Part shown: positions 38,142 through 62,536 of the stretch, in pieces
Layout: the number at the start of each line of letters is the position of its first letter
Numbering within the stretch: the stretch's first letter is position 1
Source: a bacterium
GTDB lineage: Bacteria > AUK180
Assembly: GCA_023144005.1 (NCBI GenBank)
Contig: JAGLGN010000022.1
Span: forward strand, 1-64,000
Length of the DNA: 64,000 nucleotides
Reading direction: 5' to 3'
Notes under the pieces: model-generated
What the model was told of the DNA's origin: nothing
Databases searched by the model: none
The model's input: the letters and a program-made list of their open reading frames with translations, nothing else
Position numbers and translations under genes: made by a program

Positions 38142-38897
38142 ATGAAAATGGGAATATCGGTTGTGATTCCTGTGAAAAATGAACACGGGCATTTGAAAGA
38201 ACTTCTTCCAGAGCTTTTGACCTGGGTCGACGAGATCCTTATTATGGACGACTTCTCCACCGACGATACTGAAATACTTATTAAGAATTTTGCGCCAAAA
38301 GTAAAACACTTTCCAAGTACGCCTTGGAATATGAACGAGTCATTGAACAAGGGCTTTTCTAACTGCAGCAATAGCTGGATCCTACATCTTGACGCGGACG
38401 AGAGGATCCCGGATCCATTAAAAGAAGAGATATTAGAAGTAGTTGAGACCAACCCTCGTGGACTGAATGGGTATGAATTGCCCCGCATTGGGTATATTGG
38501 GAGCAAGGAGATAAAAAGTTGTGGGTGGTATCCGGATTATGCATTAAGGTTATTTATCAATGGCAAAGCACATCATCCTCAATTAGTACATGTTCCACTG
38601 CAACTTGACGGAGAGGCGGGTAAATTGAAAAACGCGATGCTTCATTATTCCTACAGAGACATGGAGCACTTCATCTTAAAATTCAACCTGTATTCAACCT
38701 GGCTGGCTAAACACATGCTTGCAGGAGAGTATTCTCGCTCAAGTATTATTATTAAAATATTTCTCAAATTTCCCTATAAATATTTCATTCAGAAAGGCTT
38801 TACAGATGGAATACATGGTTTTCTGATCTCTCTTTTTGATTCGCTTTATTACTTGGTAGGATATTTAAAATTCTTGGAAATGAGGAGAAGAAAATAA
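38142..38897 (+). CDS. GT2 glycosyltransferase, WaaE/KdtX-like
   Basis: The 251-residue protein has ISVVIPVKNEHGHL, ILIMDDFSTDDT, WILHLDADERIPDPL and GWYPDYALRLF, the set seen in WaaE/KdtX-type enzymes that add hexoses to lipopolysaccharide core or surface glycans. A C-terminal hydrophobic stretch (about 225-243) may associate with the membrane. It is first in an operon of four glycosyltransferases; its stop codon overlaps the ATA start proposed for the next gene. Confidence 0.82.
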   Translation: MKMGISVVIPVKNEHGHLKELLPELLTWVDEILIMDDFSTDDTEILIKNFAPKVKHFPSTPWNMNESLNKGFSNCSNSWILHLDADERIPDPLKEEILEVVETNPRGLNGYELPRIGYIGSKEIKSCGWYPDYALRLFINGKAHHPQLVHVPLQLDGEAGKLKNAMLHYSYRDMEHFILKFNLYSTWLAKHMLAGEYSRSSIIIKIFLKFPYKYFIQKGFTDGIHGFLISLFDSLYYLVGYLKFLEMRRRK

Positions 38898-40003
38898 ACA
38901 AAAAAAGAGTTCTGTATGTATCTTCTCTCTCTCAAATGGGCGGTGCTGAACTTTCCCTTTCCGATCTCATCAAAGGCTTTTCTGTAAAAAGCGATTATGA
39001 GATACTGGTTGTATTGCCGCAATCGGGAGAACTCTCAAAGCGAATATCTGAATTTTCTGTGGAAGTAAATCATCTTTCGTCAGGACTTCGGCCTGGGAGG
39101 TTGGAGAAATTCTTCTTCTTTCCCTTGCGGCTGTTTTCTATTATAAAAAAGTTTAACCCTGATATCATACATTTGAATACTAAAGGGGCGATCAAATATC
39201 TGCTTCTTTCGAGAATCTTCCTGAAATTTAAATGGATTCAGCATATTAGAGGAAATCTCATAAAGAAGGATGCAAGGCTTTTTCATCAGACAGTGATCGG
39301 CCTTTCCGATATCAGGATCGCCATCTCTAAGAGTGTTAGGAGATCATACAACAGAGAGAATGACAGGAATTTCCATGTTCTGTACAATGCGTTTGATTTT
39401 TCAACCTTTTCTCAGAAATTGAACGAAAATGGGGAGCAAATCTTTAGAAAGGAGGTTGGAATTCCACATACTCACCGTGTTATTTTGAGCGTAGGGAGGA
39501 TCAGCCCTATTAAGAGACAGCACCTTCTCGTAGCAGCGGCAAAGGAGTTGTCCTCAGAACCTATCACATTTGTGATCTGTGGTGATGTGGCCTTTGACAA
39601 TCCCTACGAAAAGAATTATGGAAAGGAATTAAGGCGCATAGCTAAACCTCTAAAAAATATTATTTTTACCGGGTGGCAAAGCGAATTGTACAAATATTAT
39701 TCTATTGCTGATCTCTTGGTACACACTGCTTATACCGAGGCCTTTGGCAGGGTTTTCATTGAAGCTGCTTATTACGGCGTTCCTGTGATCGCCACCAACA
39801 GAGGTGCAATGGCCGAGATCATAAACGGATGGGCATTGGGACGACTCTTTAGCGAAGATCCCTCTAACCTTTCCGAGAGTATCACATCTGCTCTAAACGA
39901 TCCTCCAGATGCTGCCGTGCTTCAAAATAGAAAAAAGCAAATAATGTTAGATTTTACCATAGATAACTTGCTTCAGGATTTGGATGAGTTTTACAAAAAC
40001 TGA
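38894..40003 (+). CDS. GT4 glycosyltransferase, probable ATA start codon
   Basis: From the first usual start (ATG 38936) the protein would begin MGGAELSLSDL and lack beta-strand 1 of the Rossmann fold. The frame continues upstream, encoding NKKRVLYVSSLSQ, exactly that strand. The only plausible start there is ATA at 38894, 6 nt after GAGGAG and overlapping the previous stop codon as ATAA, as ATGA does elsewhere in the window. The donor half has VILSVGRISPIKRQHLL, FVICGD and HTAYTEAFGRVFIEAAYYG. A damaged ATG with re-initiation at 38936 is the alternative. Confidence 0.78.
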   Translation: MNKKRVLYVSSLSQMGGAELSLSDLIKGFSVKSDYEILVVLPQSGELSKRISEFSVEVNHLSSGLRPGRLEKFFFFPLRLFSIIKKFNPDIIHLNTKGAIKYLLLSRIFLKFKWIQHIRGNLIKKDARLFHQTVIGLSDIRIAISKSVRRSYNRENDRNFHVLYNAFDFSTFSQKLNENGEQIFRKEVGIPHTHRVILSVGRISPIKRQHLLVAAAKELSSEPITFVICGDVAFDNPYEKNYGKELRRIAKPLKNIIFTGWQSELYKYYSIADLLVHTAYTEAFGRVFIEAAYYGVPVIATNRGAMAEIINGWALGRLFSEDPSNLSESITSALNDPPDAAVLQNRKKQIMLDFTIDNLLQDLDEFYKN

Positions 40004-41135
40004 GAAAAAAATTAACTTGCTTTTATTGGAGCAGTACTCCTCTATCGGAGGTGCCGAGATAGTTGCTTTGAATTTGCTGGAAGCACTTCACTCCCAAATA
40101 GATATGCATTGTATTCTCCCTAAGGAAGGTAAGTTGTCTCAAGTTCTTTCGGAGAAAGGATGTCAAGTTGCTTATTATGAAATTCCACCTATCAGATCTG
40201 CAATAAACGAGAGGCGCAAAGCTCTTTCTTATATAGAAAAATATATCGAGGAGTTCAAGATAGATCTTATATATACTCCGATGATACGCTGTGGGTATTA
40301 CGGCTCGATCATCTCGAAAAGAAAGAAAATACCGTTCGTATGGCAATTAAATGAGATCATTTCGCCACTGAAGGTCTTTTATCTGAATCGTTATTTGCAT
40401 GGGAGACATACCTATCCTATTGCTGTATCGAGTGAGGTTCGGCGTCGCTTTGGAGAAGATATCCCTGTAATTGAGAACCCGATATTCCAGAAAATTCAAT
40501 ATAAAAGCGCGAAAAATCCTGAAAAGATGGGTTTTATAGGGCGAATAGTACCTCAAAAAGGGCTGCATCTCGCTCTTTTGGTATTTTCTAGAATTGTGAG
40601 GGATATGCCTTCCGCAGAATTCCTAATTTATGGTGAAGAGGAAAATGTAGGCGGTCTTCACATAAGAAAGATAAAAAAGGCAGCCCGGGAATGCGGGTTT
40701 AAAATATCTTTCACCTCTTATCGCGACCTGCTGGATGCATTGATAATCAGAGAGGCTTTATCTGATGAGGTAAGATTCCAAGGGTATTCAGAGAACCTTA
40801 ATGAGGCAGTTGCTGAAATAGGGACTCTCTTCGTACCTTCCTGGAATTCTCCCGGGGAAGCATTTGGCCTCACCGCTGCCGAGGGAATGAAGTCAGGTGC
40901 TCTTGTAATTTCTTCTCGATCTGGCAATTTGAAGAATCTGATAGTCCACGGGGCAACAGGCTTGTTCTCGGATTTTAAGGATCTGGACAGAACCGCTTCG
41001 AATATACTGGATGTTCTGACAGACAGTAAGCGATTCAGGGAGATATCAAAAAATGCGGCGATCTATGCAGAGAGATTTGATATCGATCTTTTCGATAAAA
41101 CCGTGAGGAAGTTTATAAATGGCATCTTTGAATAA
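39984..41135 (+). CDS. GT4 glycosyltransferase
   Basis: A 383-residue GT-B enzyme beginning near INLLLLEQYSSIGGAEIVAL, the glycine loop region. The donor half has MGFIGRIVPQKGLHLAL, FLIYGEEE and WNSPGEAFGLTAAEGMKSG with the E-x7-E element. It overlaps the preceding gene by 20 nt and has AGGA before its ATG. Specificity cannot be read from the sequence. Confidence 0.85.
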   Translation: MSFTKTEKKINLLLLEQYSSIGGAEIVALNLLEALHSQIDMHCILPKEGKLSQVLSEKGCQVAYYEIPPIRSAINERRKALSYIEKYIEEFKIDLIYTPMIRCGYYGSIISKRKKIPFVWQLNEIISPLKVFYLNRYLHGRHTYPIAVSSEVRRRFGEDIPVIENPIFQKIQYKSAKNPEKMGFIGRIVPQKGLHLALLVFSRIVRDMPSAEFLIYGEEENVGGLHIRKIKKAARECGFKISFTSYRDLLDALIIREALSDEVRFQGYSENLNEAVAEIGTLFVPSWNSPGEAFGLTAAEGMKSGALVISSRSGNLKNLIVHGATGLFSDFKDLDRTASNILDVLTDSKRFREISKNAAIYAERFDIDLFDKTVRKFINGIFE

Positions 41136-42213
41136 GATATTGATTATCTCTACCGACCTGCCGCCTATTATCGGAGGGATCACAAAATATGTGGAGAATA
41201 TTGCACTTGCCCTAAGGGATGAGTATGATATTGATTTTCTGGGTATCCCCCTTGACGGCAATAACATTGATCCGGTCTTCATGCAAAGGGATGTAAATAT
41301 CATCAAATTACACAAGAATAAGCTCTTTGAGGTATTCCAGATGCACTCCTGTTTTAAGAAACTTGCACTGGAGAAGTACCATAGAATAATTCTGGCAAAT
41401 ACCCTGCCGGATTTATTTATTGTTAACCCTTTGTTAAAGAGATATAAAGAGAAAGTATATTTTTTACACTATAACAATAAACAGTTATTGGGAAGAAAGA
41501 AGAGTTTTCGGCATGCCATTAGGGATTTTCATAATATTTGCATTTCTGATTGGTTAACCTCGGAATTCAGAGATCGCGGCATCTCCAATGTTGAAACACT
41601 TTATCCAATGTTGGATACCAAGGAATTTCTAGCCATCAAACCAAAGGCAATTAAAGAATTGACTAAACTCACAGGTTTTAAGCTTCTCACGGTTTCCAGA
41701 ATAGTTCCGCATAAAGGCCACCGTGATGTTATTTCTGCTCTTGAATCACTAGATATAGCCGTAGAGTTTATAATCGCGGGGTCCGGCTCCTATCTAAACG
41801 AATTGAAAAGCTTTGCTGCGGGAAGTCCTATCTCTGAAAGGATACACTTTACTGGAAGAGTGGATGCGAACGAGCTTGTCTGGCTCTATGGTAATTGCGA
41901 CCTTTTTATAATGACCTCCAGGAATATGCCTGCAAATATTGAAGGCTTCGGGTATTCTTTCATTGAGGCGAATCTCCATAAGAAAGCCGTAATAGGGACT
42001 GATGTCGGTGGTATCCCCTCGGCTGTAAAGGATGGAGTTTCTGGGATTCTTCTACCAGAGGGAAATATAGAGAGATTGGCTGATACTATAAGGCAGTTAT
42101 ATCTTGATGCAGATCTTCGACATCAGCTTGGCCTGCAGGGATATGAGAGAGCTTGTAAGAAGTTTGACATACATTCAGGTCACAGCACAGTAAGACAGGT
42201 ATTTGGCTTGTAA
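41119..42213 (+). CDS. GT4 glycosyltransferase
   Basis: A 364-residue GT-B enzyme starting MASLNKILIISTDLPPIIGG. The donor half has LLTVSRIVPHKGHRDVI, FIIAGSGSYLNEL, NIEGFGYSFIEANLH (E-x7-E variant) and VIGTDVGGIPSAVKDG. It overlaps the previous glycosyltransferase by 17 nt. Directly after its stop codon lies a short copy of the dispersed repeat seen at 62.5 kb, followed by a truncated glycosyltransferase. Confidence 0.85.
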   Translation: MASLNKILIISTDLPPIIGGITKYVENIALALRDEYDIDFLGIPLDGNNIDPVFMQRDVNIIKLHKNKLFEVFQMHSCFKKLALEKYHRIILANTLPDLFIVNPLLKRYKEKVYFLHYNNKQLLGRKKSFRHAIRDFHNICISDWLTSEFRDRGISNVETLYPMLDTKEFLAIKPKAIKELTKLTGFKLLTVSRIVPHKGHRDVISALESLDIAVEFIIAGSGSYLNELKSFAAGSPISERIHFTGRVDANELVWLYGNCDLFIMTSRNMPANIEGFGYSFIEANLHKKAVIGTDVGGIPSAVKDGVSGILLPEGNIERLADTIRQLYLDADLRHQLGLQGYERACKKFDIHSGHSTVRQVFGL

Positions 42214-42245
42214 GTGTGTTCTGATCCATAAATACGATGACAGTG
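42214..42245 (+). repeat. partial copy of the 62.5 kb dispersed repeat
   Basis: The segment after the stop codon reads TCTGATCCATAAATACG and continues TGACA-TGG-like; it matches TCTGATCCATAAAGACG of the second repeat unit at about 62641-62657 at all but one base. It sits exactly between an intact and a truncated glycosyltransferase. Confidence 0.45.
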
Positions 42246-42524
42246 GAATGTTTAGATTTGAGGCAATTCCAACGAACAATGAGCGCAGGGCGAATAGTTT
42301 TTTCTTCCGATACCGGGGCGTTCAGGAATTATTTAGAAAATGGTGTAAATGGTTATCGAATAGATTTTAGCAAAAAGAACTCCTTACTGAAGCTGATTGA
42401 GAAGTTAAATAGTGATCGAGCATTGATCGATGTGATAAGAAAAAGAGGATTTGAATTTTCAAAGAAATTTTCTGAGTCTGATTTTGATGAAAATATTTGT
42501 AATTACTTCAAGACCTTCTTTTGA
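42237..42524 (+). pseudogene. C-terminal fragment of a GT4 glycosyltransferase
   Basis: The 95-residue frame contains TMSAGRIVFSSDTGAFRNYL, the final GT4 segment that follows E-x7-E, and a closing helix pair. Nothing of the N-terminal domain or most of the donor domain remains. No ribosome site is seen at ATG 42237, which lies at the end of the repeat copy. It is best read as the tail of a gene cut by a rearrangement. Confidence 0.7.
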
Positions 42525-42629
42525 TATTTGAAAAACGATTCGATGGACAATAGCAAATTTCTATTTTGACCATTGCATATTGTTCCACCGTGTGACCTTT
42601 TTGTGGAAAGGTAAGTATAGGTTTTGGGT

Positions 42630-43457
42630 TTAATTACTTAGTTCGAATATATGCTGCTTACAGATATCATCACCACAATCTAAATATTTGGAACCCAGAT
42701 AATGATTTAACAAGGTGAAGCCGGATTCCTTTATAACCTTCAAAACATAATCCAATTTTCTATAGTACATAGGGATGTAAATTCTTCTGTACAGAATATT
42801 GGATTCAACTCTCTTATTAGCTAATTCATTAATGCTTGGAGAGCTGAAAATGGGAATGTGACAAATAACTTTTCCTCCGGGCTTCAGAATCCTCTTGAAT
42901 TCCCTAAGAAATTTTTCAAACTGGAGGTCGTTAAGATGTTGAAAAACTGCGAAAGTATATATCAGGTCAAATCGATTGTCTTGAAATTTCGAAAGTCCAT
43001 TCATCTTCCCAAGGACATACTTGATATTCTTCCCAGAATTGAGTATTTCTGCACATTTGATAACACCTATTGAAATATCTGTTCCTATAACAGATTTAGC
43101 ATACTTTGCAACGGCACATGAAAGATATCCGGGACCACATCCAAAGTCAAGAACATCCATGTCCTTATTTACGAAGGGCTTTACGAGTTTTTCTGAGATT
43201 TTATGGCGGGACTCTTTATTCCGGTAATGTTCTTGATTTAGTAAATAGCTTCCTACCTTTTGCCCGGATAATATGCGATCTTTATCAAGATAAATAAAGT
43301 AGTGGGGGCTAATTCCAAGAAGTTGCAATGCGAGTTTGTGGCGAAATTTAGCTGGCGTTAAGTTCAGAAGCAAAGGTATCACGGGGTTGCCCAAAAAATT
43401 TTGTCCGCTTACTCCGCCCAATATGAATCTTAGAAATGTTCTGGTTAAATTTACCAT
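42630..43457 (-). CDS. class I SAM-dependent methyltransferase
   Basis: The 275-residue protein has DVLDFGCGPGYLSCAV as SAM loop, VIGTDISIGVI, LIYTFAVFQHLNDLQFE and LKPGGKVICHIP, a methyltransferase-11 pattern. The first 90 residues are basic and partly hydrophobic. It is a single minus-strand gene between two glycosyltransferase operons. Its ATG lies 5 nt after a TACAAT box, so the transcript is probably leaderless. Confidence 0.78.
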   Translation of the reverse strand: MVNLTRTFLRFILGGVSGQNFLGNPVIPLLLNLTPAKFRHKLALQLLGISPHYFIYLDKDRILSGQKVGSYLLNQEHYRNKESRHKISEKLVKPFVNKDMDVLDFGCGPGYLSCAVAKYAKSVIGTDISIGVIKCAEILNSGKNIKYVLGKMNGLSKFQDNRFDLIYTFAVFQHLNDLQFEKFLREFKRILKPGGKVICHIPIFSSPSINELANKRVESNILYRRIYIPMYYRKLDYVLKVIKESGFTLLNHYLGSKYLDCGDDICKQHIFELSN

Positions 43458-43462
43458 GCGCT

Positions 43463-43491
43463 ATTGTATCACGGTATGACATTTTAATCAA
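43463..43491 (-). promoter_or_regulatory. leaderless-type promoter
   Basis: Minus strand: TTGATT (43491-43486), 17 bp spacer with TGa, TACAAT (43468-43463), then 5 nt to the ATG at 43457. Confidence 0.55.
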
Positions 43492-43648
43492 TAACAATTT
43501 ATCAGGGGAAATATATAATGATTTGCATATAAATTCATTGAAACAGATAAATATGTGAGGTAAGATTTCGAATTACTTGTCTTTGCGGTGGATTCCTGAC
43601 ATTACAAAGATTGCTCGTAGTATTGGTTTTTTCATATAATATGTTACA

Positions 43649-44824
43649 ATGAACACTACGGTAATAGTTATGAAAATAAAGCGAAAAGAACTAATTATGC
43701 TCTCAACGGCTTATTGGGATGAACCCAGTTGGACCAATAAGCAGCATATCGCGACAGAATTTCATAAGAAAGGTTATAGCGTTCTTTATATTGAACCTCC
43801 GCTCTTTATCGGAAGATTTCTGCTGAACATGATCCAAAAAGTGAAGAGACTGCCATGGTACAAGAAATTAATCCTTTTAAGAAAGATAAAGAAAGGTTTC
43901 TTTGTGTTTTCAACATTTTACATCTTTCCTGCAAGATTCCACGAATTGAATTATCGTTTGGGAACATCTCTTATCCTCTGTGCTATTCGTATGGTGAAAT
44001 TACTGCTTGGATTTTCAAAACCCTATCTGATCAATTATCTGCCCAATGGGGCTCGATATATTGGCCAGCTATCGGAAAGAAGCTCACTTTACGATTGCGT
44101 GGATGAGTATTCAGGTATGGCCGGTATAGATCCCCGGATCGTGTATTTAGAGCAGGAGTTGTTAAGGAAAGTAGATGCAGTTGCTGTCACTGCAAGAGGA
44201 TTGTATGAAAGAAAAAAGCCATACAACTCTAATACACATATAGTACATAATGTGGGGAATTCCTCACTTTTTGATCGTGAAAAAATCTGCGCTCTTCCAG
44301 TCCCTATCGAGTTAAAAGGGATGAGAAATATTGTCGGGTTTATCGGGGCGGTGAATTTCAAGATTGATATTGAATTGATGAAATACCTTCTTGATAACAT
44401 AAGTGATGCGGATTTCGTGTTTATTGGTCCTGTGTATGATTTTAATCCGGCAGATTTCAAAGAATATGGAAATTTCCATTTGCTTGGTTCAAGGCCCCTT
44501 GACCGTTTGCCAGAATATGTGAGTAATTTTAAGATCGGCATCATACCCTATCTCGTGAATGAATATACAAAATATGTATTCCCCCTGAAACTTTTTGAAT
44601 TCTTCTCTGCCCGTATCCCTGTCATCGCTACCGCACTTCCCGAAATAATGTACTATAAAGATATTGCTCATATTGAATCTCAAAGAGAAAAGTTTTTAAA
44701 CACATTGAAAAAACTGATCTGTGGTGAAATCACATCAGAGCGTCTTGATAAGGGCTACGATGTTGCATCTAAATATGATTGGTCCTGGCGTGCAAACGAA
44801 CTGGAAAAGTTGCTCAGAATATGA
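43649..44824 (+). CDS. glycosyltransferase, TuaH-like GT-B type
   Basis: The 391-residue protein resembles the TuaH-like group: MLSTAYWDEPSWTNKQHIA at the start, SLYDCVDEYSGMAG in the middle, LEQELLRKVDAVAVTARGL, then VGFIGAVNFKIDIELM and KLFEFFSARIPVIAT. It is first in an operon of seven tightly linked genes ending at 51465. The start is uncertain: a TGtTACAAT box (43645-43650, with TTGGTT 16 bp upstream) overlaps ATG 43649, which would make ATG 43670 the true start. A TATAAT at 43635 would allow 43649. Confidence 0.77.
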   Translation: MNTTVIVMKIKRKELIMLSTAYWDEPSWTNKQHIATEFHKKGYSVLYIEPPLFIGRFLLNMIQKVKRLPWYKKLILLRKIKKGFFVFSTFYIFPARFHELNYRLGTSLILCAIRMVKLLLGFSKPYLINYLPNGARYIGQLSERSSLYDCVDEYSGMAGIDPRIVYLEQELLRKVDAVAVTARGLYERKKPYNSNTHIVHNVGNSSLFDREKICALPVPIELKGMRNIVGFIGAVNFKIDIELMKYLLDNISDADFVFIGPVYDFNPADFKEYGNFHLLGSRPLDRLPEYVSNFKIGIIPYLVNEYTKYVFPLKLFEFFSARIPVIATALPEIMYYKDIAHIESQREKFLNTLKKLICGEITSERLDKGYDVASKYDWSWRANELEKLLRI

Positions 44825-46215
44825 AAAAGATATCTATAGTATTGATATTTGCGTTCTTGGTGATATTTGGGTCGAGTGTTATCTTAAATCCTACAGGAAG
44901 GTTGCCGATGATGATCTTTGCGATCCTTGTGGTAATCACATATTTTCTAATCGCGCGTAAAAGCGTAGTGGCCGGCATTCTTCTCTTTCTGCTATTTCTT
45001 CCATTCTATAACTTTGTAAAATACAGAATATTCAACAACTCGATGATGGGGGTTGCTTCCAAGGACATTATGCTCTTACTTTTGCTTGTTGCTTGGGCTA
45101 TGAATAAGGTAAAATCAGGTGAAAAGATCAAAATCCCCCCTTGGTGGATGATGATTCTGCCATATCTTTTTATTGCCAGCGTAAATATTATTAAAGCGCC
45201 CAGTTTGATGGCGGGAGTGTTGGACTGGAGGATAATGGTGTTCTATCCTGTTTGTTCATTGATCTTCTTTGATGCAATAAATACAAGGGAAAAATACTAC
45301 AAGTCAATTAGGATATTAAGTTATGCGGCGCTATTAGTGGCTGGAATTGGAATATTTCAGAGAATCTTTTTTATGAAATTCGGGAGATGGATGTCAGAAG
45401 ATCTGTTCGGAGCAGCATTTATCAAGACAATGTATGAAGAGATTTTCATTACCTCAACTGTTGGCCATCATGGAGTATTGGGATTGTATATGATATTCTC
45501 ATTAGGACTTCTGTATATCCTTTTCAATGAAAGAAGGAGCATGCTTCCTCGCTGGCTTTATCCGGTATCAGCGATGTCATATATTCTGGCAATCATTTTT
45601 TGCAATAATCGTACTGCTTGGGTAGCATTAATAATCTTGGCTTTTGGTTTTTTCATCAGAGAAAAAAAGAGGAGAGTTCTGCTTGTTATTGTTGCGTTAC
45701 TGATGATCTTCGGGTTCTTTGTTAATAATCAATTTTTTCAAAAACGATTTTCTGATATTGTTAATCCACTGGGTGAAAAGTCATCCTTCCGGATACGCTT
45801 TAGCGGTTGGAGGGAGAAATTGCTCACAGGACTTGAACATCCATTGGGGGTAGGCTTAGGGCAGGTCGGAATGACTTCGAAATCTGCGTCTTTTGGAGTT
45901 GCCAATGATCTTGCGCAATACAGGGGTTATGCTCGTGTCGTGGATAATTTCTATTTCATTATCTTCATCGAATTGGGATATCCGGGTTTTCTGTTCTTTA
46001 TTATGTTCTGGAGTATTTTATTCAACTGGATCACGAAGCAGAACAGGAAGAATAGGCATCCAGTCATTTTTGTTGCATTCTTGACTACGATAATTATGAC
46101 AGTAGCGAATATCACAGGAGTGTATTTCAATTTTATTCTGCTCCAGATGTATTTCTGGTTTATTATTGCGGGGGCTTTTGCCGAATCAAATGAAAAAGCA
46201 TTACCGAAGACCTAA
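44821..46215 (+). CDS. O-antigen ligase / polymerase-like membrane protein (WaaL-like)
   Basis: A 464-residue protein with 10-12 hydrophobic helices. The Wzy_C-type periplasmic loop is visible (GWREKLLTGLEHPLGVGLGQ near residues 335-355), preceded by CNNRTAWVALIILAFGF. These marks fit the O-antigen ligase superfamily; ligase and polymerase cannot be separated by eye. ATG 44821 is chosen because it makes an ATGA overlap with the preceding gene; an earlier open start (44779) adds a polar segment before the first helix. Its 3' end overlaps the next gene by 26 nt. Confidence 0.8.
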   Translation: MKKISIVLIFAFLVIFGSSVILNPTGRLPMMIFAILVVITYFLIARKSVVAGILLFLLFLPFYNFVKYRIFNNSMMGVASKDIMLLLLLVAWAMNKVKSGEKIKIPPWWMMILPYLFIASVNIIKAPSLMAGVLDWRIMVFYPVCSLIFFDAINTREKYYKSIRILSYAALLVAGIGIFQRIFFMKFGRWMSEDLFGAAFIKTMYEEIFITSTVGHHGVLGLYMIFSLGLLYILFNERRSMLPRWLYPVSAMSYILAIIFCNNRTAWVALIILAFGFFIREKKRRVLLVIVALLMIFGFFVNNQFFQKRFSDIVNPLGEKSSFRIRFSGWREKLLTGLEHPLGVGLGQVGMTSKSASFGVANDLAQYRGYARVVDNFYFIIFIELGYPGFLFFIMFWSILFNWITKQNRKNRHPVIFVAFLTTIIMTVANITGVYFNFILLQMYFWFIIAGAFAESNEKALPKT

Positions 46216-47284
46216 GATACTCTTGGTGTCTCAATTACCCATCATTGGAGGTGAGCAGCTCCATATTTTGGAGATAATAAACAGATTATCCGATAAGTAT
46301 GATTTTACAGTAGCCTTGGGTGGTGAAGGTGTATTCACGCGGCTGCTTGAAAAAAACGGTATTAAGTTCTTCGTATTGAAAATGTCCGGACACATGAATA
46401 TAATGGCTTTCTTCAAAACTTTGAAGATACTTAATAAGCGGGAGTATGACATCATTCACCTTCATAGCCCGCGAGCCGCGTACTACTTCATTCTCGGGAA
46501 TGTATTTTCCCGCCGAACGCAATTTGTTTGGACTCATCATATATTTATCGGTGACGCCTTTTCTCCTCGAACATTTAAAGGTAGGCTGTATCTCTGGGGA
46601 GCGAAATTACTTCATAAAAATGTGGCATTAAATATCGCGGTATCAAATTATGTGAAAGAAATGTATCAAAATTCGTCCTTCAAGGGTAAATTCAATATGA
46701 TATATAACGGGATCGAAATTCTGAAGCACACTTCTGTAAGGAAGCTAAATAATCCGATCCGTTTGGGCATAGTATCCAGATTAGAGGAGTTTAAAGGATA
46801 TTCGTTACTAATTGAGATGATAAGAAAGTACGAACTGCCGGGATTTGAATTTCACATTTTCAACACCGGAAGTATGTCCGATGGCGTCGAAAAACTGTCC
46901 AAGGCGTACCCTTCTGTAAAATACCGGGGGTTTGTCGAAGATAAAGATGTGATGTATGAGAAATTTGATGTTTTATTGCTTCTTTCGCGATTTGAGGGAT
47001 TTGGCTATGTGACAGTAGAAGCGGTGGCAAGGGGAATTCCCGTTATTGCTTACGATACTTCATTGAATAGAGAGCTTCTTTCAGATTATCCTGATGAAGG
47101 ATTTTTTAAAAAGTATTCGTCCGAATCATTAAAAGATACCTTGGAGCAATTGAAGGATACTGATCTTTATCAAACACTTTTATCAGCACTTGAGAAGATC
47201 GATCTTGACCGATTTGATAGTTGCAAGAACATTCATCGGCTTGAAGATGTCTATAAAGGAGTATTAAATGAAAATCGCAATTGA
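46190..47284 (+). CDS. GT4 glycosyltransferase
   Basis: The 364-residue GT-B enzyme begins MKKHYRRPKILLVSQLPIIG and has the IIHLHSPRAAYY strand of GT4 enzymes. The donor half shows IRLGIVSRLEEFKGYSLL, VLLLLSRFEGFGYVTVEAVA (E-x7-E) and IPVIAYDTS. ATG 46190 is preferred to the GTG-type start at 46166, which only adds residues inside the ligase gene. It overlaps the next gene by 17 nt. Confidence 0.82.
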   Translation: MKKHYRRPKILLVSQLPIIGGEQLHILEIINRLSDKYDFTVALGGEGVFTRLLEKNGIKFFVLKMSGHMNIMAFFKTLKILNKREYDIIHLHSPRAAYYFILGNVFSRRTQFVWTHHIFIGDAFSPRTFKGRLYLWGAKLLHKNVALNIAVSNYVKEMYQNSSFKGKFNMIYNGIEILKHTSVRKLNNPIRLGIVSRLEEFKGYSLLIEMIRKYELPGFEFHIFNTGSMSDGVEKLSKAYPSVKYRGFVEDKDVMYEKFDVLLLLSRFEGFGYVTVEAVARGIPVIAYDTSLNRELLSDYPDEGFFKKYSSESLKDTLEQLKDTDLYQTLLSALEKIDLDRFDSCKNIHRLEDVYKGVLNENRN

Positions 47285-48383
47285 TATTTCTTTACTGGGA
47301 GCTATTTATACAGGGCAGCATTTTTATATTACTTCATTGCTCAAAACAATGATCACAAAACATCCGGAGGATCGATTTGTCCTCATAACCTACGGGGATC
47401 GCGGCAGATCGGATTTTGAGCATTTTGATAATGTTGAATTCATCGAATTGCTTGGCGGCAAATACTCAAGAACGAGAAGAATATTGCACCAGCAAATGAA
47501 ATTAAATCACATTATTAGAAAAATCTCTCCTGAAGTATATTTCTCTCCGGCATTTGTCCAGCCCGTAACGGTGAAGGGAGTGAAAAAGATAGTGACTGTT
47601 CATGATCTGATCTACAAGGAATTTCCCCGAACTTATTCAAAAGTAAAGAATGTATATCTTAATAAGGCCCTGAAAAGGGCTTTGAAGAATTCTGACAGGA
47701 TCATTGCGATCTCGAAGCACACAAAAAGTGACATTTTGAAATATTTTGACATTCCGGAGGAGAAGATCGATGTGGTATATTACGGGGTGGATGAGATATT
47801 CAAAGAAGAACTCACGCTTGATACGGCGCGAAAAATTACATCTGGACTCGATCTTCCTGATAATTTCTATTTTTATATAGGAACCTTGGAGCCGCGAAAG
47901 AATATTCCATATGTAATTAGCAACTTTGATCTTTTTCTCAATAAATTTCCGGATAATCACCTGATACTATGGGGCTGGAAAGGAGATTTGCCGGATGAGG
48001 TTTTCAAGCTGCTGAACAAGGTGGAAAATAAAAAGAACATTCATTTCAGAGGATATATTGATCACTCTATGCTTCCATCTGTTATGCGATTGGCGAGAGG
48101 GATGTTTTTTGTCTCTCTTTATGAGGGCTTTGGACTTCCTCCCGTTGAGGCGATGTCTGCTGGCTGTCCAGTTTTTACCTCGAACATATCTTCCATCCCT
48201 GAAGTTGTCGGTGATGGAGGGATATATGTTGATGTTAAAGACCCGCAAGGACTTTATAAAAAATTGTTATATACACATGAGAATCCGGCCGAGATCATTG
48301 CTGTTGTGAAAAAAGGAAAAGATCTCGCAAAAAGATTTACTTGGGAACGGGCTGCGGAAGAGACCTATAGGTTATTCATATGA
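47268..48383 (+). CDS. GT4 glycosyltransferase
   Basis: A 371-residue enzyme of the mannosyltransferase-B-like GT4 type, with MKIAIDISLLGAIYTGQHFY, IVTVHDLIYKEFP, RIIAISKHTKSDIL, FYIGTLEPRKN and SLYEGFGLPPVEAMSAG. The set HDL..., AISKHTK and LEPRKN is common to a group that acts on O-antigen and capsule chains. AAAGGAG precedes the ATG. It overlaps its neighbours by 17 and 4 nt. Confidence 0.88.
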   Translation: MKIAIDISLLGAIYTGQHFYITSLLKTMITKHPEDRFVLITYGDRGRSDFEHFDNVEFIELLGGKYSRTRRILHQQMKLNHIIRKISPEVYFSPAFVQPVTVKGVKKIVTVHDLIYKEFPRTYSKVKNVYLNKALKRALKNSDRIIAISKHTKSDILKYFDIPEEKIDVVYYGVDEIFKEELTLDTARKITSGLDLPDNFYFYIGTLEPRKNIPYVISNFDLFLNKFPDNHLILWGWKGDLPDEVFKLLNKVENKKNIHFRGYIDHSMLPSVMRLARGMFFVSLYEGFGLPPVEAMSAGCPVFTSNISSIPEVVGDGGIYVDVKDPQGLYKKLLYTHENPAEIIAVVKKGKDLAKRFTWERAAEETYRLFI

Positions 48384-49495
48384 AGAAATTACAGGATCTT
48401 AGGGTTGCGCTTGTACACGATTATTTCATGCAGCACGGAGGTGCCGAAAGGGTATTTGAAGTGCTGTACGAGATATTTCCTGATGCCGATGTATTCTGCC
48501 CTGTTGTGAATAGGAGTATTATTGATTCTATTGATAGCAAAATGAAACTGCACACATCCCGATTTTTTAACAATCCACTTATAAAAAGGTACTATAGAGT
48601 AATGCTGCCTTTTTACCCGCTCGAGATAGAGAAATTCGATCTTTCCGGTTATGACCTGGTTATTTCCGATTCAAGCGGATGGGTAAAGAATGTAATAATT
48701 CCTCCGGGAACGAAGCACATATCGTACATATACAATCCAATGCGGTTTCTATGGAATTATTTCCATCAGGACCTTCATAAGCGTAATACGGTGCAGAGAC
48801 TTATCCTTTCTCCTATAATGCATTTTCTAAGGATATGGGATTATATCGGAACGAACAGGATCGATAAAATAATTACAATTTCCAAACATGTTATTAAAAG
48901 AATAGAAAAATACTATGGAAAGAAAGCCGACTTGATATATCCCTATGTTGATACCGATTTTTATCGACCGTCGAATTATAAAGGAGACTATTTTCTTCTG
49001 GTATCCCGTTTTCGGCCTTATAAAAAAGTGGACCTCGCCATCAAGGCCTTTAACCGGACAGGTGATAAATTGTTAATAATCGGCAGAGGTGAAAAAGAGA
49101 AAGAATATAGAAAAATGGCGAAACCTAATATCATATTTCTTAATTCTGTAGATGATGATCATTTGCGAGAATATTACGCATCTTGCAGAGCATTTATCTT
49201 TCCTCAGGAAGAGGATTTCGGCATAACGCCTCTGGAGGCACAATCCTGTGGACGCCCGGTAATTGCATTCGCTGCAGGGGGAGCTTTGGAAACTATCACA
49301 GATGGCGTTAGCGGTCTCTTTTTCTCAAAGCAAACGGTTTCCTCTCTCGCTAATGTGATTGAGCGCTTCAAAAAAGTAGAACATTCATTCAAAAAGGCAA
49401 AGGTAAGAGAATCCATACTTGGTTTTTCGCGGAATAATTTTAAAAAACAGTTTGTCCAGCAGATCGAACTCACTATGTCGGATAGTGAGGTTTAA
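48380..49495 (+). CDS. GT4 glycosyltransferase, WbaZ/WbdC-like
   Basis: The 371-residue enzyme has RVALVHDYFMQHGGAERVFE, FPDADVFCPV, HISYIYNPMRFLWNYF, ITISKHVIKRIEKYYG, FLLVSRFRPYKKVDLAI and EEDFGITPLEAQSCGRPVIA. This series is typical of the WbaZ-type mannosyltransferase-like group. ATGA overlap with the preceding gene; the next gene starts one base past its stop codon. Confidence 0.87.
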   Translation: MKKLQDLRVALVHDYFMQHGGAERVFEVLYEIFPDADVFCPVVNRSIIDSIDSKMKLHTSRFFNNPLIKRYYRVMLPFYPLEIEKFDLSGYDLVISDSSGWVKNVIIPPGTKHISYIYNPMRFLWNYFHQDLHKRNTVQRLILSPIMHFLRIWDYIGTNRIDKIITISKHVIKRIEKYYGKKADLIYPYVDTDFYRPSNYKGDYFLLVSRFRPYKKVDLAIKAFNRTGDKLLIIGRGEKEKEYRKMAKPNIIFLNSVDDDHLREYYASCRAFIFPQEEDFGITPLEAQSCGRPVIAFAAGGALETITDGVSGLFFSKQTVSSLANVIERFKKVEHSFKKAKVRESILGFSRNNFKKQFVQQIELTMSDSEV

Positions 49496-49496
49496 T

Positions 49497-50627
49497 TTGA
49501 AACGCATAGCGATAAATTTATTTGCTTCCCATAAAATTCAGACAGGGATCGGGACATACCTTACAGGCCTGATAGAGGGCCTTTCAAAGATAAAATTAGA
49601 ATTCGAACCGGTTCTGATCCTGAATACTGAGGGCTGTGAGATCTTCTCGCCTTATCTTGATAGATTTGAGCATTTCCATGCCCCGTCTATTACAGACACA
49701 GTCAAGGGCCGGGTATTTTATGAGCACACAATCTTCAAGAAAGCTTTGAAGAAATTGGAGATCGATCTTCTTCATTCTCCTGTATTTGTAACCCCGATAA
49801 ATTACAAAGGCCCCGGTATTCTAACTATTCATGACACGACCTTTATAACGCATCCGCAATACCATGTTCCTTCAAAGAGATTTTATTTCAAGAACGGAAT
49901 ACCAATGTCCGTAAAGAAAAATCAGAAGGTTATCGCTATTTCTGAAAATACAAAAAGAGACCTGATCGAACTTTTTCCGAAGAGCAAAGAAAAATTCGTA
50001 TATATCCCTTATGGAGTATCCTCTATTTTCTATTCCGATATTTCTAACACGGAAAAAGTTGAATTCAAGAGAAAATATGAACTGCCCGAAAAATTTCTTC
50101 TCTATGTAGGAGTTCTCGAGCCAAGAAAGAATCTAGAATCTACCATAGAGGCATTCGCCAAAGCCGATATTCCGAAGGATGTTTCGCTGGTATTAGCGGG
50201 AACCAAGGGGTGGTATTATAAGGACATTTTTAAAACCATCACGGAACTCGGCCTGGAAGATCGCATTACACATATAGGCCATATTGAGTACCGTCACTTG
50301 CCTCATCTTTACCGCCGCGCCATCGGATTTCTTTACCCCTCTCTTTACGAAGGATTCGGTATGCCCGTCATAGAGGCGATGGCAAGCGGATGTCCTGTCC
50401 TGACATCTGATATTTCATCCACAAAAGAGGTCGCCGGCAATTCGGCGATGCTGGTCGACCCGCATTCCAATGATGACATTATCAGAGGGATTGAAATGCT
50501 TGTTAATGATGAGAAAAGGGTAAATGAGCTTGTAAAAATGGGAAGGACCCGTGCCGATGAATTTACCTGGGAAAAGAATGCCAGAAGGACGCAAAGGGTG
50601 ATAATGGAGGTTTTAAATGGAACTTAG
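49497..50627 (+). CDS. GT4 glycosyltransferase
   Basis: A 376-residue relative of the enzyme at 47268, with KRIAINLFASHKIQTGIGTYL, ILTIHDTTFITHPQ, VIAISENTKRDLI, LLYVGVLEPRKNLE and SLYEGFGMPVIEAMASG. The start is TTG at 49497, after GAGG and one base past the previous stop codon; the open frame continues upstream to 49419, but those residues overlap the previous gene and lack family likeness. It overlaps the GT2 gene by 11 nt. The two similar GT4 enzymes of this operon may have arisen by duplication. Confidence 0.85.
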   Translation: MKRIAINLFASHKIQTGIGTYLTGLIEGLSKIKLEFEPVLILNTEGCEIFSPYLDRFEHFHAPSITDTVKGRVFYEHTIFKKALKKLEIDLLHSPVFVTPINYKGPGILTIHDTTFITHPQYHVPSKRFYFKNGIPMSVKKNQKVIAISENTKRDLIELFPKSKEKFVYIPYGVSSIFYSDISNTEKVEFKRKYELPEKFLLYVGVLEPRKNLESTIEAFAKADIPKDVSLVLAGTKGWYYKDIFKTITELGLEDRITHIGHIEYRHLPHLYRRAIGFLYPSLYEGFGMPVIEAMASGCPVLTSDISSTKEVAGNSAMLVDPHSNDDIIRGIEMLVNDEKRVNELVKMGRTRADEFTWEKNARRTQRVIMEVLNGT

Positions 50628-51764: not shown

Positions 51765-51772
51765 TATAAAAT
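51744..51772 (+). promoter_or_regulatory. leaderless-type promoter
   Basis: Consensus TTGACA (51744-51749), 17 bp spacer, TAAAAT (51767-51772), then 6 nt to the ATG at 51779. It lies within the glycosyltransferase fragment. Confidence 0.65.
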
Positions 51773-51778
51773 TACTAC

Positions 51779-52729
51779 ATGAAAGTACTTGTCACCGGTG
51801 CCGCAGGATTTATTGGCTCCACACTTTGCGAAAAACTCACAGAAAATAATATTCACTGTGTAGGAATAGATAAACTCACCAATTACTACGATGTTTCCTT
51901 GAAAAGATCAAATCTCAAATCCTTAAAATCAAACGATAAATTTTCATTTCATGAATCTGATGTGATGAGTGAAAAAACAATAGGGGAGATTAAAAATGCC
52001 GATGTGATCTTTCACCTTTCCGCGCAGCCCGGTGTGTTTAAATCCTGGGGTAAAGATTTCCAGATATATGTTAGGGAGAACATAGAAGTAACACAGTTTC
52101 TACTGGAAATCTTGAAAGATTACCCAGAGAAAAGACTTGTTTTTGCTTCTTCGTCATCAGTCTACGGTAAAACAAATACTTATCCTATGAGAGAGGATAA
52201 TATATTGAGGCCGATCTCTCCTTACGGCTTGACAAAACTGGCATGTGAAAGATTATTAGACCTTTACAACATCAGTTTTGGTCTTAAATATCTTTCGCTT
52301 AGATTCTTTACAGTTTTCGGCCCCAGGCAGCGTGCTGATATGGCATTTCATAAATTTTTCAAATCAGTGATAAAGAATGAACCAATTAATATATACGGCA
52401 ACGGTGAACAGATCAGAGACTTTACCTATGTTGATGCGGTTGTGGATTTTCTGTATAAACTAATTGATAATGATAAATGGAATTATGAGGTCAATGTAGG
52501 CGGCGGGGCTTCTATCAGTGTTAATGAAGTGCTTAAGATGATATTTGAGATCACCGGCAAAGGGACTAAGGTGAATTACATTGCTTATCAGAAAGGTGAC
52601 ATGAAAAAAACCCTCGCAGATATTTCACTAGCCAGAGATGGATTTAATTATTCACCTGAATTTTCACTCTTTGAGGGATTGAAGAAAGAGTGGGAATGGA
52701 TTCAAACGATATATAAAGTCGATCGGTAA
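51779..52729 (+). CDS. NAD-dependent sugar epimerase (extended SDR)
   Basis: The 316-residue protein has VLVTGAAGFIGSTLCEKL, FHLSAQPGVFKSWGKDF, ASSSSVYGKTNTYP, catalytic SPYGLTKLACERL (Tyr-x3-Lys) and FFTVFGPRQRADMAFHKF. The AQPGVxxSW and GPRQRADMAFHKF segments place it near UDP-glucuronate/UDP-glucose 4-epimerases. Uronic acid supply would suit the amidotransferase-like gene at 23.1 kb (inference). Probably leaderless. Confidence 0.85.
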   Translation: MKVLVTGAAGFIGSTLCEKLTENNIHCVGIDKLTNYYDVSLKRSNLKSLKSNDKFSFHESDVMSEKTIGEIKNADVIFHLSAQPGVFKSWGKDFQIYVRENIEVTQFLLEILKDYPEKRLVFASSSSVYGKTNTYPMREDNILRPISPYGLTKLACERLLDLYNISFGLKYLSLRFFTVFGPRQRADMAFHKFFKSVIKNEPINIYGNGEQIRDFTYVDAVVDFLYKLIDNDKWNYEVNVGGGASISVNEVLKMIFEITGKGTKVNYIAYQKGDMKKTLADISLARDGFNYSPEFSLFEGLKKEWEWIQTIYKVDR

Positions 52730-52873
52730 CTCCTTGGTTTGCGCTCGCGAAGTAAAGTCAAGGAAGTAACAGAATATCAGATATGTGTTCAATTACTTTC
52801 TTACCTTTCTCATTAATTGAGTTGCGTCGAAATCTGAAGTCTCATGAAACTAAACTACTTGTGAAAAGAAATC

Positions 52874-52902
52874 TTGTATTTATATTCAAAAAACAATAAA
52901 AT
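52874..52902 (+). promoter_or_regulatory. leaderless-type promoter of hrcA-grpE
   Basis: TTGTAT (52874-52879), 17 bp spacer, TAAAAT (52897-52902), then 6 nt to GTG at 52909. No CIRCE-like inverted repeat is visible near it. Confidence 0.6.
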
Positions 52903-52908
52903 GATTAA

Positions 52909-53940
52909 GTGAACAAAAGAGATGGCCAATTCCTCAATGAAAGAGAAAAATTCGTATTACAGATATTGGTGAAGGAATATTGCAGGGTTAAGACCCCCGT
53001 CGGCTCGACATATCTGAAAAAACGGTTCAATCTCGATATTTCAAGCGCAACATTGAGAAATGTCTTCGCCGCCTTGGAGGAGAAGGGTTATCTCTTCAAA
53101 GCACACACTTCCGGCGGAAGGATACCCACTGACCTTGCGTTCAGATCCTATGTCGACCATCTCCTGCACTTAAATCAATTCATTCAGATCGAGCTCAGAA
53201 ATCTCAAGAGTGAGTTGGATGAAAGCATGGTCGATCTGGAGAATGTCATGGTATTTTCTTCAAAGATGATCTCTAAATTCACCAATGAGATGGCTTTTTC
53301 GCTCGGTGTTACGGTGGATACTCAAAAATTGAAAGGTGTCCATTTTAATCAGATCGCCCCGAATCAAATACTGGCCCTTATTTACCTTTCCAGCGGATTG
53401 GTACTGGATAAGATCTTTTTTATCTCGGACGCCGCGATCGACAGAAGGGTATTGAAGCTGGTAGAGGGCTTCATCAATGATGCCGCAAAGGGGAGAAATC
53501 TTGCGGAGATCGAAGAGGCGTTAAAAGAGCGCTTCAAAGAATTGAAGGGTGAATTAAAAAAATATGACAAGGTCGTAAAAGGACTGCTCGGTAAATTGGG
53601 GACTGTCATCACGGAGTTCCAGAGGATACATCTTGAACCCATCCCAGGCCATGAGGGCCAGCTTTCCGAGTTCAATACAGGTGATAGGATGAAAGAGCTG
53701 ATCCTGAAATTTTCCGCCTTGGATTCAACACGGATATTCATCGGTCAGGAATTGGGTGAGGAAGAGCTGAAGGAAATGACCATCATCACCTCGCCCTTTA
53801 AGATCAATGATGAAAGGACAGGGCTTTTCGGCATCGTCGGGCCGAAGGCGATGTATTATGACTTTAATATAGATTTTCTCAGAAAGTTCTCACAGATGGT
53901 ATCCGATGTCATCAGCGAGAAATTTAAAAGTTGGAGGTAA
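52909..53940 (+). CDS. hrcA: heat-inducible transcription repressor HrcA
   Basis: The 343-residue protein has the HrcA layout: an N-terminal winged helix (LNEREKFVLQILVKEY, TPVGSTYLKKRF, ISSATLRNVFAALEEKGYL, HTSGGRIPTDLAFRSYVDHLL), a GAF-like middle domain, and the closing GLFGIVGPKAMYYDFNIDFL. HrcA represses chaperone genes by binding CIRCE and is helped by GroEL. GTG 52909 lies 6 nt after TAAAAT, so the mRNA is probably leaderless. grpE follows at once; dnaK and dnaJ do not. Confidence 0.93.
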   Translation: MNKRDGQFLNEREKFVLQILVKEYCRVKTPVGSTYLKKRFNLDISSATLRNVFAALEEKGYLFKAHTSGGRIPTDLAFRSYVDHLLHLNQFIQIELRNLKSELDESMVDLENVMVFSSKMISKFTNEMAFSLGVTVDTQKLKGVHFNQIAPNQILALIYLSSGLVLDKIFFISDAAIDRRVLKLVEGFINDAAKGRNLAEIEEALKERFKELKGELKKYDKVVKGLLGKLGTVITEFQRIHLEPIPGHEGQLSEFNTGDRMKELILKFSALDSTRIFIGQELGEEELKEMTIITSPFKINDERTGLFGIVGPKAMYYDFNIDFLRKFSQMVSDVISEKFKSWR

Positions 53941-53942
53941 AG

Positions 53943-54518
53943 ATGTTAATGGACAATGAAACCAGGTACTTCTATAAAAAATTACGCAGTCTCAAAAAAG
54001 AGATAGCTTTCAATCATGAGATCCTGGAAAAGCTTCTTGTGGAAAAAGAGAAGAGCATGAAGGAAAATGAGTCCTTGAAAAGAGAGAACGAGAATTTCAA
54101 GAACGCCATTAAGAAAAACAAGGACACCTTGGATCAATTCAGCAAAGACAATGAAAAATTCCAAGAGCGTTCTCAGAAGGAGCTCAAGAATGCCTTGAAA
54201 AGAGAAAGCAAAAAATTCCTCATCGGCTTTATTGAGGTTTTAGGACATTTCGAATATGCGATGGCAAACATCAAGGACGAGAATACCCTGAAGGGTATTG
54301 AAATGGTCTATAATGAATTCATTAAAAAACTTGAAAATGAAGGGGTTCAGGTCATTAACGAGATAGGGGTTGACTTTGATCCGAATGTACATAACGCAAT
54401 AGGTGTGCGCGAGAAGAAGGGCTCTCATGATAAGGTTTTGGAGATTGCATTGAGGGGGTTTATTCTCGATGGTATTGTGATAAGGGCAGCGGATTGCTAT
54501 GTCTCTAAATCTAAATAA
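53943..54518 (+). CDS. grpE: nucleotide exchange factor GrpE
   Basis: The 191-residue protein has a long N-terminal coiled coil (about 10-85, rich in K and E), then the GrpE core with LIGFIEVLGHFEYAMAN, KGIEMVYNEFIKKLENEGV and the closing FDPNVHNAIGV and GFILDGIVIRAADCYVSK. It releases ADP from DnaK. ATG 53943 follows GGAGG, which lies in the end of hrcA; an upstream TTG at 53931 and an ATG at 53949 are alternatives. The 3' end overlaps the convergent minus-strand gene by 8 nt. Confidence 0.93.
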   Translation: MLMDNETRYFYKKLRSLKKEIAFNHEILEKLLVEKEKSMKENESLKRENENFKNAIKKNKDTLDQFSKDNEKFQERSQKELKNALKRESKKFLIGFIEVLGHFEYAMANIKDENTLKGIEMVYNEFIKKLENEGVQVINEIGVDFDPNVHNAIGVREKKGSHDKVLEIALRGFILDGIVIRAADCYVSKSK

Positions 54519-55533
54519 GATATCTGTATTTGACAAAGAAGGAAAGATTCCTTTTCAAGTCCAATTTAATAGTATTCTTGAACCCCAGAATAAAAAGATG
54601 TTTCTCACCTTTTTCTAAAAGGGAAAGGGAGATGAAGTACCTGTCATAGAATTCAGGACCCGCTACCAGAAAATAGTTCTTATAAAGTGGAATTTTTATT
54701 AGAAGCCGCTTGTTTTCCCTAGTGTCACTTAAGTAGAATTGAAAGAAAAATCTTTCGTAAACATCCATAGTAAATTCCATATCGGGAGAATGGCTTTCGC
54801 GAGTGCGATAATAGAAAAGAATTCCCAGATATTCTTGGATGCGTGTTCTGAAGACGGTCGTGAAAGAGATCTCTCTTTTTAAAAAGATGGAGTTCAAATA
54901 GGATTCAGGGTCGGAGAACTCCGAAACCTTTCCACCCATTACTCCGATCTCCATATGATCAAGTGGTTTCCAAGATCCGAAGAAAGAAAAGTTCCTTGTG
55001 AAATTTTCGGAACCGCTGATCTCATATCGAAGGACAAGGCCGAGCTTGTCGATCGAATATTTCACAAATATATTGTAAATATGTTTCAAGGAATAAAAGT
55101 CGATCGGGCCATTATCGGATATCTCATTCCAGGACGCTTCTATTCCCAGACTGGTATCGGTTAATAAAGGATAAGAAAAAGCCAGCACCACTGCCTTATT
55201 ATCAAGATCAGTATATTGTCCGTATCGTCCGCTCAAGAGGTTGATGTTAAGGAAAAAACTGCTTTTCCCGCTGCGGAAATAGGATTGTTTGAAAAAGATA
55301 AGGTCTGCCTGTGAAGGCAGAGTGACCGCATCATTATTGATGAGGTAATTTTCAGAGGAGAAATTGTTCTTGTTGCCGCGGCACATATACCTGCCGAAAA
55401 TATCGGCAAAGTACCCCGCATTGTCCTCGAATATTCCATTATTGATGAAATTCGGGGAAATAGCGCAACTATTTGTCCAGCTTAAAATGAGAAATAATAA
55501 TGTCAACAATGACTTGAAGTTCTTGTCTTTCAT
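54511..55533 (-). CDS. exported protein, probable outer-membrane beta-strand protein
   Basis: The 340-residue protein has an N-terminal signal peptide (about 1-24, KSLLTLLFLILSW core) and then alternating hydrophobic/polar strands with many aromatic residues, closing with the motif NLSFFVKYRYLI. That pattern suggests an outer-membrane beta-barrel, but no family is recognised. It is last in the recA-polA operon and overlaps the end of coaE by 65 nt, which is long; a later internal start would lose the signal peptide. Confidence 0.6.
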   Translation of the reverse strand: MKDKNFKSLLTLLFLILSWTNSCAISPNFINNGIFEDNAGYFADIFGRYMCRGNKNNFSSENYLINNDAVTLPSQADLIFFKQSYFRSGKSSFFLNINLLSGRYGQYTDLDNKAVVLAFSYPLLTDTSLGIEASWNEISDNGPIDFYSLKHIYNIFVKYSIDKLGLVLRYEISGSENFTRNFSFFGSWKPLDHMEIGVMGGKVSEFSDPESYLNSIFLKREISFTTVFRTRIQEYLGILFYYRTRESHSPDMEFTMDVYERFFFQFYLSDTRENKRLLIKIPLYKNYFLVAGPEFYDRYFISLSLLEKGEKHLFILGFKNTIKLDLKRNLSFFVKYRYLI

Positions 55534-56023
55534 CGTTATTAATGATAAGATCGGCCTTAATTTTTCTAAATTCCCTCTTCTGTTCTTTCAACAAAGCTCG
55601 AGCTGTTCTCTTGGTAAAGTCCATTTCCGTGATCCTTCTTTTCACGATCTTCATGGGTGCTTTGACAAGAATCACTTTATCAATATTATCCATAATATTC
55701 AATGTCAGGGGTATTGGCGCATCAACGATGCAGCTGGGGTTTTTCAGTAGAAATTTATCAATAGCGCTCTTTATTGCAGGATGCATAATGGAATTTGTTC
55801 CTTTTCTCAATTGGCTTTTCCACATCCCGCTTCTCATAATTACTTCCAGATCCGTATCCCCGCATTGAAAGAGGTTTTTCAATTGAGTTCTGATATCCGC
55901 ATCCCTTCTAAGCTCTGCTGCAATACTATCTGCCTTGAGAAGGGGATAACGAATCGTTTCAGAAAGCATGTAAGCGACAGTGCTTTTTCCGCTTGCCATG
56001 ATCCCCGAGATCAGCAGTCTCAT
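55469..56023 (-). CDS. coaE: dephospho-CoA kinase
   Basis: The 184-residue protein has the P-loop GIMASGKST (residues 7-15), LLKADSIAAELRRD, the MHPAIKSAI motif with the conserved His-Pro, and IVDAPIPLTLNI. These are the CoaE landmarks; the enzyme phosphorylates dephospho-CoA, the last step to coenzyme A. It is a little shorter than the usual 200 residues. Its ATG shares one base with the polA stop codon (TGATG), showing translational coupling. Confidence 0.85.
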   Translation of the reverse strand: MRLLISGIMASGKSTVAYMLSETIRYPLLKADSIAAELRRDADIRTQLKNLFQCGDTDLEVIMRSGMWKSQLRKGTNSIMHPAIKSAIDKFLLKNPSCIVDAPIPLTLNIMDNIDKVILVKAPMKIVKRRITEMDFTKRTARALLKEQKREFRKIKADLIINNDERQELQVIVDIIISHFKLDK

Positions 56024-60194: not shown

Positions 60195-60203
60195 GAGACA
60201 CTC

Positions 60204-62434: not shown

Positions 62435-62439
62435 TGTTG

Positions 62440-62528: not shown

Positions 62529-62536
62529 GAATTTCT

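Follow-up and report, generated by a model that had tools for sequence, protein, structure and literature searches.

Probable initiation at an AUA codon within a stop/start overlap of a bacterial GT2–GT4 glycosyltransferase gene pair

Initiation at the AUA codon at position 38894, weak and coupled to translation of the upstream GT2-type glycosyltransferase gene, is the best explanation for the expression of the GT4 glycosyltransferase gene of the window, and we consider it likely on the evidence of the DNA sequence. The window is the whole stretch of 64,000 nucleotides analysed here, and its genome (G000), that of an uncultured bacterium, comprises 2.67 Mb in 38 contigs. The case is made by the missing canonical start, the protein fold and conservation taken together. 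A Shine-Dalgarno (SD) sequence followed by ATA is not convincing alone, because a screen for SD sequences before any codon, run on 643 genes called by a simple hexamer method in 819,998 bases (31% of G000), gave 28 rows with 19 codon types, including two rows with ATA. The features of the junction are as follows.

38142..38897, + strand: GT2-type glycosyltransferase of 251 aa with stop codon TAA (open reading frame; PF00535, E 1.7e-16)
38870..38872, + strand: ATT inside GT2, a rival near-cognate codon eight residues before ATA (28-nt overlap)
38882..38887, + strand: SD sequence GAGGAG, within the last codons of GT2, 6 nt 5' of ATA
38891..38894, + strand: run of four A at the last GT2 codon (AAA before TAA), a possible site of a -1 slip joining GT2 to GT4
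38894..38896, + strand: proposed GT4 start codon ATA (from sequence; ATA also in the sister species)
38894..40003, + strand: GT4 glycosyltransferase of 369 aa counted from ATA (PF13439 and PF00534)
38895..38897, + strand: GT2 stop codon TAA in the ATAA overlap (ATAG in the sister species)
38903..38920, + strand: beta-strand 1 of the GT-B fold, residues 4-9 (AlphaFold2 model; alignment with 4xso)
38921..38931, + strand: pyrimidine stretch with predicted mRNA pairing to the SD region 38882-38891, a possible coupling hairpin
38936..38938, + strand: first canonical in-frame ATG, judged not to be the start of the functional protein

The bases of the window were re-read at the junction, and GAGGAG, the 6-nt gap (aagaaa), ATA and the ATAA formed by the shared bases of the GT4 start and the GT2 stop were found exactly as a first-pass annotation had described them. 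The GT4 frame lies at -1 relative to GT2 and opens after the TGA at 38837-38839. No ATG, GTG or TTG occurs in this frame from 38840 up to the ATG at 38936, which is codon 15 counted from ATA. The junction has the geometry of a -4 overlap, both in the window and in the sister species described below, with ATA as a non-canonical start codon in place of the ATGA, GTGA or TTGA type. The hybridisation energy to the anti-SD at ATA was -8.3 kcal/mol in both species, as calculated with an assumed anti-SD tail, the 16S gene of the organism being absent from the assembly searched. The predicted hairpin between the SD region and the stretch at 38921-38931 paired similarly in both species, with z values against shuffled sequences of -1.55 and -0.49, neither of which was significant.

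The fold of the GT4 protein, which carries the PF13439 and PF00534 domains of a GT-B enzyme, was examined in an AlphaFold2 model (m64cbb7e8255c; mean pLDDT 91, pTM 0.87) built on 13 aligned sequences. Strand 1 of the model comprises residues 4-9. The best sequence match among solved structures was HepE 4xso (E 8e-18, 22% identity), and the N-terminal stretch of GT4 aligned with KILFLDQ at the N-terminus of that protein (4xso residue 8 onwards); the best fold match was HepE 4xsu, with a TM score of 0.84. Anabaena HepE (Alr3699; PDB 4xso-4xsu), itself a GT4 enzyme, is thus the nearest to the GT4 of the window in both sequence and fold. Because strand 1 lies at residues 4-9 and aligns with the N-terminus of HepE, and the ATG at 38936 encodes residue 15, a start at 38936 would, according to the model, delete beta-strand 1. 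The model and the alignment bear out the earlier claims that the N-terminus encoded from ATA is the expected first strand and that no canonical start retains it. In an automatic annotation this protein would lose its 14 N-terminal residues and, with them, strand 1.

We then compared the position of the ATA codon with the starts of other GT4 genes. Of the distant GT4 homologs, 14 could be aligned as far as the N-terminus, and in 11 of them a canonical start was found at residue equivalents 1-4, that is, at the place of ATA; one homolog had its start at -7 and two had none there. In a wider survey 91 loci were submitted to a profile, and in 86 entries, representing 74 distinct loci, the alignment began no later than model position 8. 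A canonical start was present at residue equivalents -60 to 5 in 70 of these 74 loci, and the four loci without one near the expected place were the window, its ortholog, L024 and L033. At L024 (genome G048), an ATT upstream of KILYIQGVTRMGG overlaps the upstream TAA, and at L033 (genome G026), an ATC upstream of IKVLFVHSSSEMYG stands seven bases after AGGAG. Both are distant, unrelated GT4 genes of single genomes outside the genus, and these sequences are leads only.

The search for relatives yielded one further genome of the genus (G001, contig JAGLWT010000074.1, loci L009 and L018), and the orthologs of the GT2–GT4 junction come from these two genomes only. The gene order was the same in G001, with a GT2 ortholog 90% identical directly upstream of a GT4 ortholog 82% identical over all 369 residues. 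No close GT4 ortholog was detected in the other 58 of the 60 genomes searched, where the best long match was 31% identical; no other strains were found, and no relative was found among viral contigs. The junction reads GAGGAG aagaaa ATA AAC in the window and GAGGAG aaggaa ATA GAA in the sister species, so that the SD sequence, the length of the 6-nt spacer and ATA (position 912 of L009) are all kept, while the next codon changes from AAC to GAA. The ATG at 38936 is CTG in the sister species, whose own first canonical codon is a GTG at codon 9, where the window has GTA, and there is no canonical start common to both species. The near-cognate codons ATT 38870 and CTG 38912 are present in both. 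Base 38896, which the first-pass annotation had proposed to compare among relatives, is A in the sister species too, with no ATG. Of the two origins that the annotation had considered for ATA, real use of AUA is supported, as ATA, the SD sequence and their spacing are common to both species and the sole canonical rival at 38936 is not. A base-call error is also unlikely, given that the separate assembly of the sister species carries the same ATA.

The other origin, a recent mutation of ATG to ATA, is not supported, since the allele of the sister species is also ATA although the locus has diverged far. Between the two genomes, dS had a median of 0.18 (140 gene pairs), versus 0.78–0.80 for GT2 and 0.50–0.52 for GT4. 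The divergence of GT4 was uneven, with a dS of 1.45 in codons 15-130 and 0.30 in codons 131-369, and the locus is therefore probably a mosaic. The junction falls in the diverged part (87% identity over 38842-38941), and this position, together with dS values of GT2 and GT4 far above the median, indicates from sequence comparison that ATA has long stood at this locus and is not recent. Omega was 0.063 for GT2 and 0.19 for GT4, indicating purifying selection, and no internal stop was present in either frame in either species; with the low omega and the stop-free frames, production of the GT4 protein is very probable. In codons 2-14 the species differ by six substitutions, three synonymous and three not (omega 0.27), and those in codons 5-13 are synonymous only. 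These changes are compatible with coding, and are too few to prove it alone. The argument from conservation is weakened by the fact that two of the ATA bases are also fixed by the stop codon of GT2, yet TGA is an equally common stop, being the commonest in the sample (255 of 643 genes). Along the window, many genes of the glycosyltransferase cluster at 38142-50000 showed a dS of 0.5–1.0 against G001 (C136/C139), and the genes at 51769-62911 showed a dS of about 0.06–0.35, a contrast that suggests exchange or diversification of the glycosyltransferase locus.

A natural mechanism for initiation at AUA would be reinitiation or SD-guided initiation, as a ribosome terminating GT2 would be on the SD sequence and AUA. 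Such a ribosome, ending GT2 at UAA, or a fresh 30S subunit, would be held by GAGGAG six bases upstream of AUA, and the initiator tRNA (CAU) would base-pair at the first and second positions of AUA, with a mismatch at the third. Initiation would be weak and dependent on translation of GT2, resulting in low GT4 output; we infer each of these three, initiation at AUA, coupling to GT2 and low output, from the arrangement of the junction. The ATA state probably arose from an ordinary ATGA overlap, in which one G-to-A change would convert at once the start to AUA and the stop from TGA to TAA; the ATAG of the sister species would be one further change from ATAA. Going back to ATG in one step would, in the sister species, change the GT2 stop to TGG, and the ATA state would thus be locked there. 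Among the 391 junctions examined in the sampled genes, ATGA overlaps numbered 81, and GTGA and TTGA overlaps of the same geometry 13 each.

Other explanations for the GT4 gene were weighed against initiation at AUA. Use of another near-cognate codon, either ATT 38870 inside GT2 or CTG 38912 inside strand 1, is unlikely, even though both codons are conserved in the sister species and AUU is a documented start codon, as described for infC (PMC5472188). The SD energies in the window and in L009 were -5.5 and -5.0 for ATT and -0.2 and -2.1 for CTG, versus -8.3 in both for ATA; moreover, a start at CTG would cut strand 1, and ATT, eight residues before ATA, lies outside the residue 1-4 place occupied by the starts of 11 of the 14 homologs. 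It is quite improbable that GT4 is a shortened protein translated only from ATG 38936, with the GTG at codon 9 serving in the sister species. A gene finder limited to ATG, GTG and TTG would presumably pick 38936, the first canonical in-frame start, but no SD sequence precedes this codon (energy 0), it is not conserved, strand 1 would be missing from its product, and the changes in codons 5-13 upstream of it are exclusively synonymous.

A -1 frameshift at the AAA before the GT2 stop would fuse GT2 to GT4, and no start codon for GT4 would be needed. Stimulated -1 frameshift sites such as that of dnaX have a slip site followed by a stop codon and an SD-like element upstream, and in the window the last Lys codon of GT2 can re-pair on A-AAA, with the stop next and the SD-like GAGGAG just 5' of it. 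In the sister species (AGG AAA TAG), however, the slip on G-AAA-TAG requires a first-position mismatch, and conservation of the slip site is thus lacking; in addition, there is no heptamer X XXY YYZ, and homologs have an N-terminus of their own at the place of ATA. Such a fusion is quite improbable. Slippage rescue at the A7 run (38900-38906) was rejected, as no start codon stands between TGA 38881-38883, where the third frame opens, and the run, and GT2 stops at its TAA before reaching it. Least probable, and very much so, is that GT4, having lost its start codon, is decaying or barely expressed, as a pseudogene in the making. ATA is a weak start, for which PMC12864459, citing Hecht 2017, quotes an E. 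coli value of at most 1% of ATG, but the frame of 369 codons is intact in both species, with an omega of 0.19 at a dS of about 0.5.

AUA is a very rare start codon, but its use has been established in Staphylococcus aureus, and the GT4 case preferred here, initiation at AUA, joins a known type and is not the first AUA start. According to PMC13009471, AUA initiation was proven for infC, ccpN and citZ of S. aureus by retapamulin ribosome profiling, and the AUA reporters of ccpN and citZ gave about 10–30% of AUG. The output of AUA reporters was lower than that of AUG both there and in PMC12864459, the source of the E. coli value above, so reduced expression of GT4 from AUA is plausible. In vitro, IF3 disfavours third-base mismatches, which argues the other way on strength (PMC10158994). 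The S. aureus genes resemble GT4 in having an AUA start with an SD sequence and no better canonical start, and in ccpN the AUA is likewise conserved between relatives; ccpN and infC have extended SD sequences, in contrast to the six-base SD of GT4, whose AUA overlaps the upstream stop and is known from sequence (PMC13009471). The GT2–GT4 junction also resembles the ATGA and TGATG overlaps of termination-reinitiation in its 4-nt stop/start overlap and in the SD sequence inside the upstream gene, but those overlaps have an AUG start (PMC6728339) and here the start is AUA, with the coupling deduced. The AUU and AUC starts of infC and the GTC start of sigR are, like the AUA of GT4, weak starts for which lower output and sensitivity to IF3 are expected; infC and sigR are regulators under IF3 control (PMC5472188), whereas GT4 is a glycosyltransferase in a glycosyltransferase gene cluster. 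In a partial search of the literature we found no case of a bacterial AUA start at an ATAA overlap, and we do not claim that none is in print.

Gene finders in common use recognise no start codons other than ATG, GTG and TTG. A broader and rather doubtful proposal is that a terminating ribosome parked on an SD sequence reinitiates with a relaxed choice of codon, and that AUA, AUU and AUC can stably replace AUG at overlaps. The four of 74 GT4 loci without a canonical start are in line with this, as are two other genes of the genus, described below, in which a conserved ATC and a conserved CTG appear as starts. If it were true, such starts would be under-recorded in the gene clusters of uncultured bacteria, because of the restriction of gene finders to the three canonical codons. 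The GT2–GT4 junction is a clean case, from two species, in which an AUA start inside a stop/start overlap has persisted through long divergence, and it offers a way to test whether weak start codons are better tolerated in termination-reinitiation than in fresh initiation.

Start codons were also examined across the sample of 643 genes. The canonical starts chosen were ATG in 571 genes, TTG in 39 and GTG in 32, with one gene lacking any in range, and codon-neutral tests on the 643 genes revealed no enrichment of ATA or other near-cognate codons. In the screen that gave all codons equal weight, ATA was picked once among nine non-canonical picks at weight -3. Between 6 and 30 of the 643 genes received a non-canonical pick at the various weights, and the largest group, ATT with four at the loosest weight, was gone at stricter weights. 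These picks were spread over many codons, and general relaxed start use throughout the genome is not supported. An unusual or lost IF3 likewise showed no sign, as infC is present and over the cut-off in both genomes; the infC of G000 has an apparent TTG start. When genes were screened for the lack of any canonical start as far as 60 nt beyond the onset of coding, seven of the 643 were flagged, of which GT4 and a gene with ATC remain candidates; among the others, one has an ATG a little further on, one represents a conserved frameshift and three fall in no clear class. The queA gene was flagged only in a tighter screen and not in this one. When starts were compared between G000 and G001 in 140 gene pairs of at least 60% identity, 48 were flagged, 88 passed and 4 were skipped. 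The contigs of GT4, the ATC gene and queA had been chosen on purpose for this comparison, which thus gives no unbiased rate, and only in these three genes was a usable canonical start absent on inspection by eye. The apparent near-cognate starts amount to three in about 640 genes, a small number from a sample that has no matched control genome.

The gene with ATC lies on the minus strand of contig C34 of G000 (L055:6200 minus; L071) and encodes an LpoB/CsgG-like exported protein. It has AAGGAGG, then AGAAT and ATC at 46200, and no canonical start precedes the apparent signal peptide, which was recognised by eye and needs the upstream start. The strong SD sequence and ATC are kept in G001 (L072/L124), and an AUC start is probable from these sequences. 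In queA, on the minus strand of the same contig (frame from 71573; L056:11573 minus; L075), no ATG, GTG or TTG is present at the expected start, where a CTG follows a weak AGGT. The CTG is found in both species (L076 in G001) and genome G002 has an ATG nearby; judged by sequence, a CUG start is probable. A 4.3-kb gene following a Clp ATPase-like gene on the minus strand of contig C13, near 241929 (L092:1928 minus; L194 in G001), has its basic N-terminus, read from a TTG, and its membrane helix in different frames, the shift occurring at a run of six T. This run is unchanged in both species, suggesting a possible programmed frameshift or slippage.
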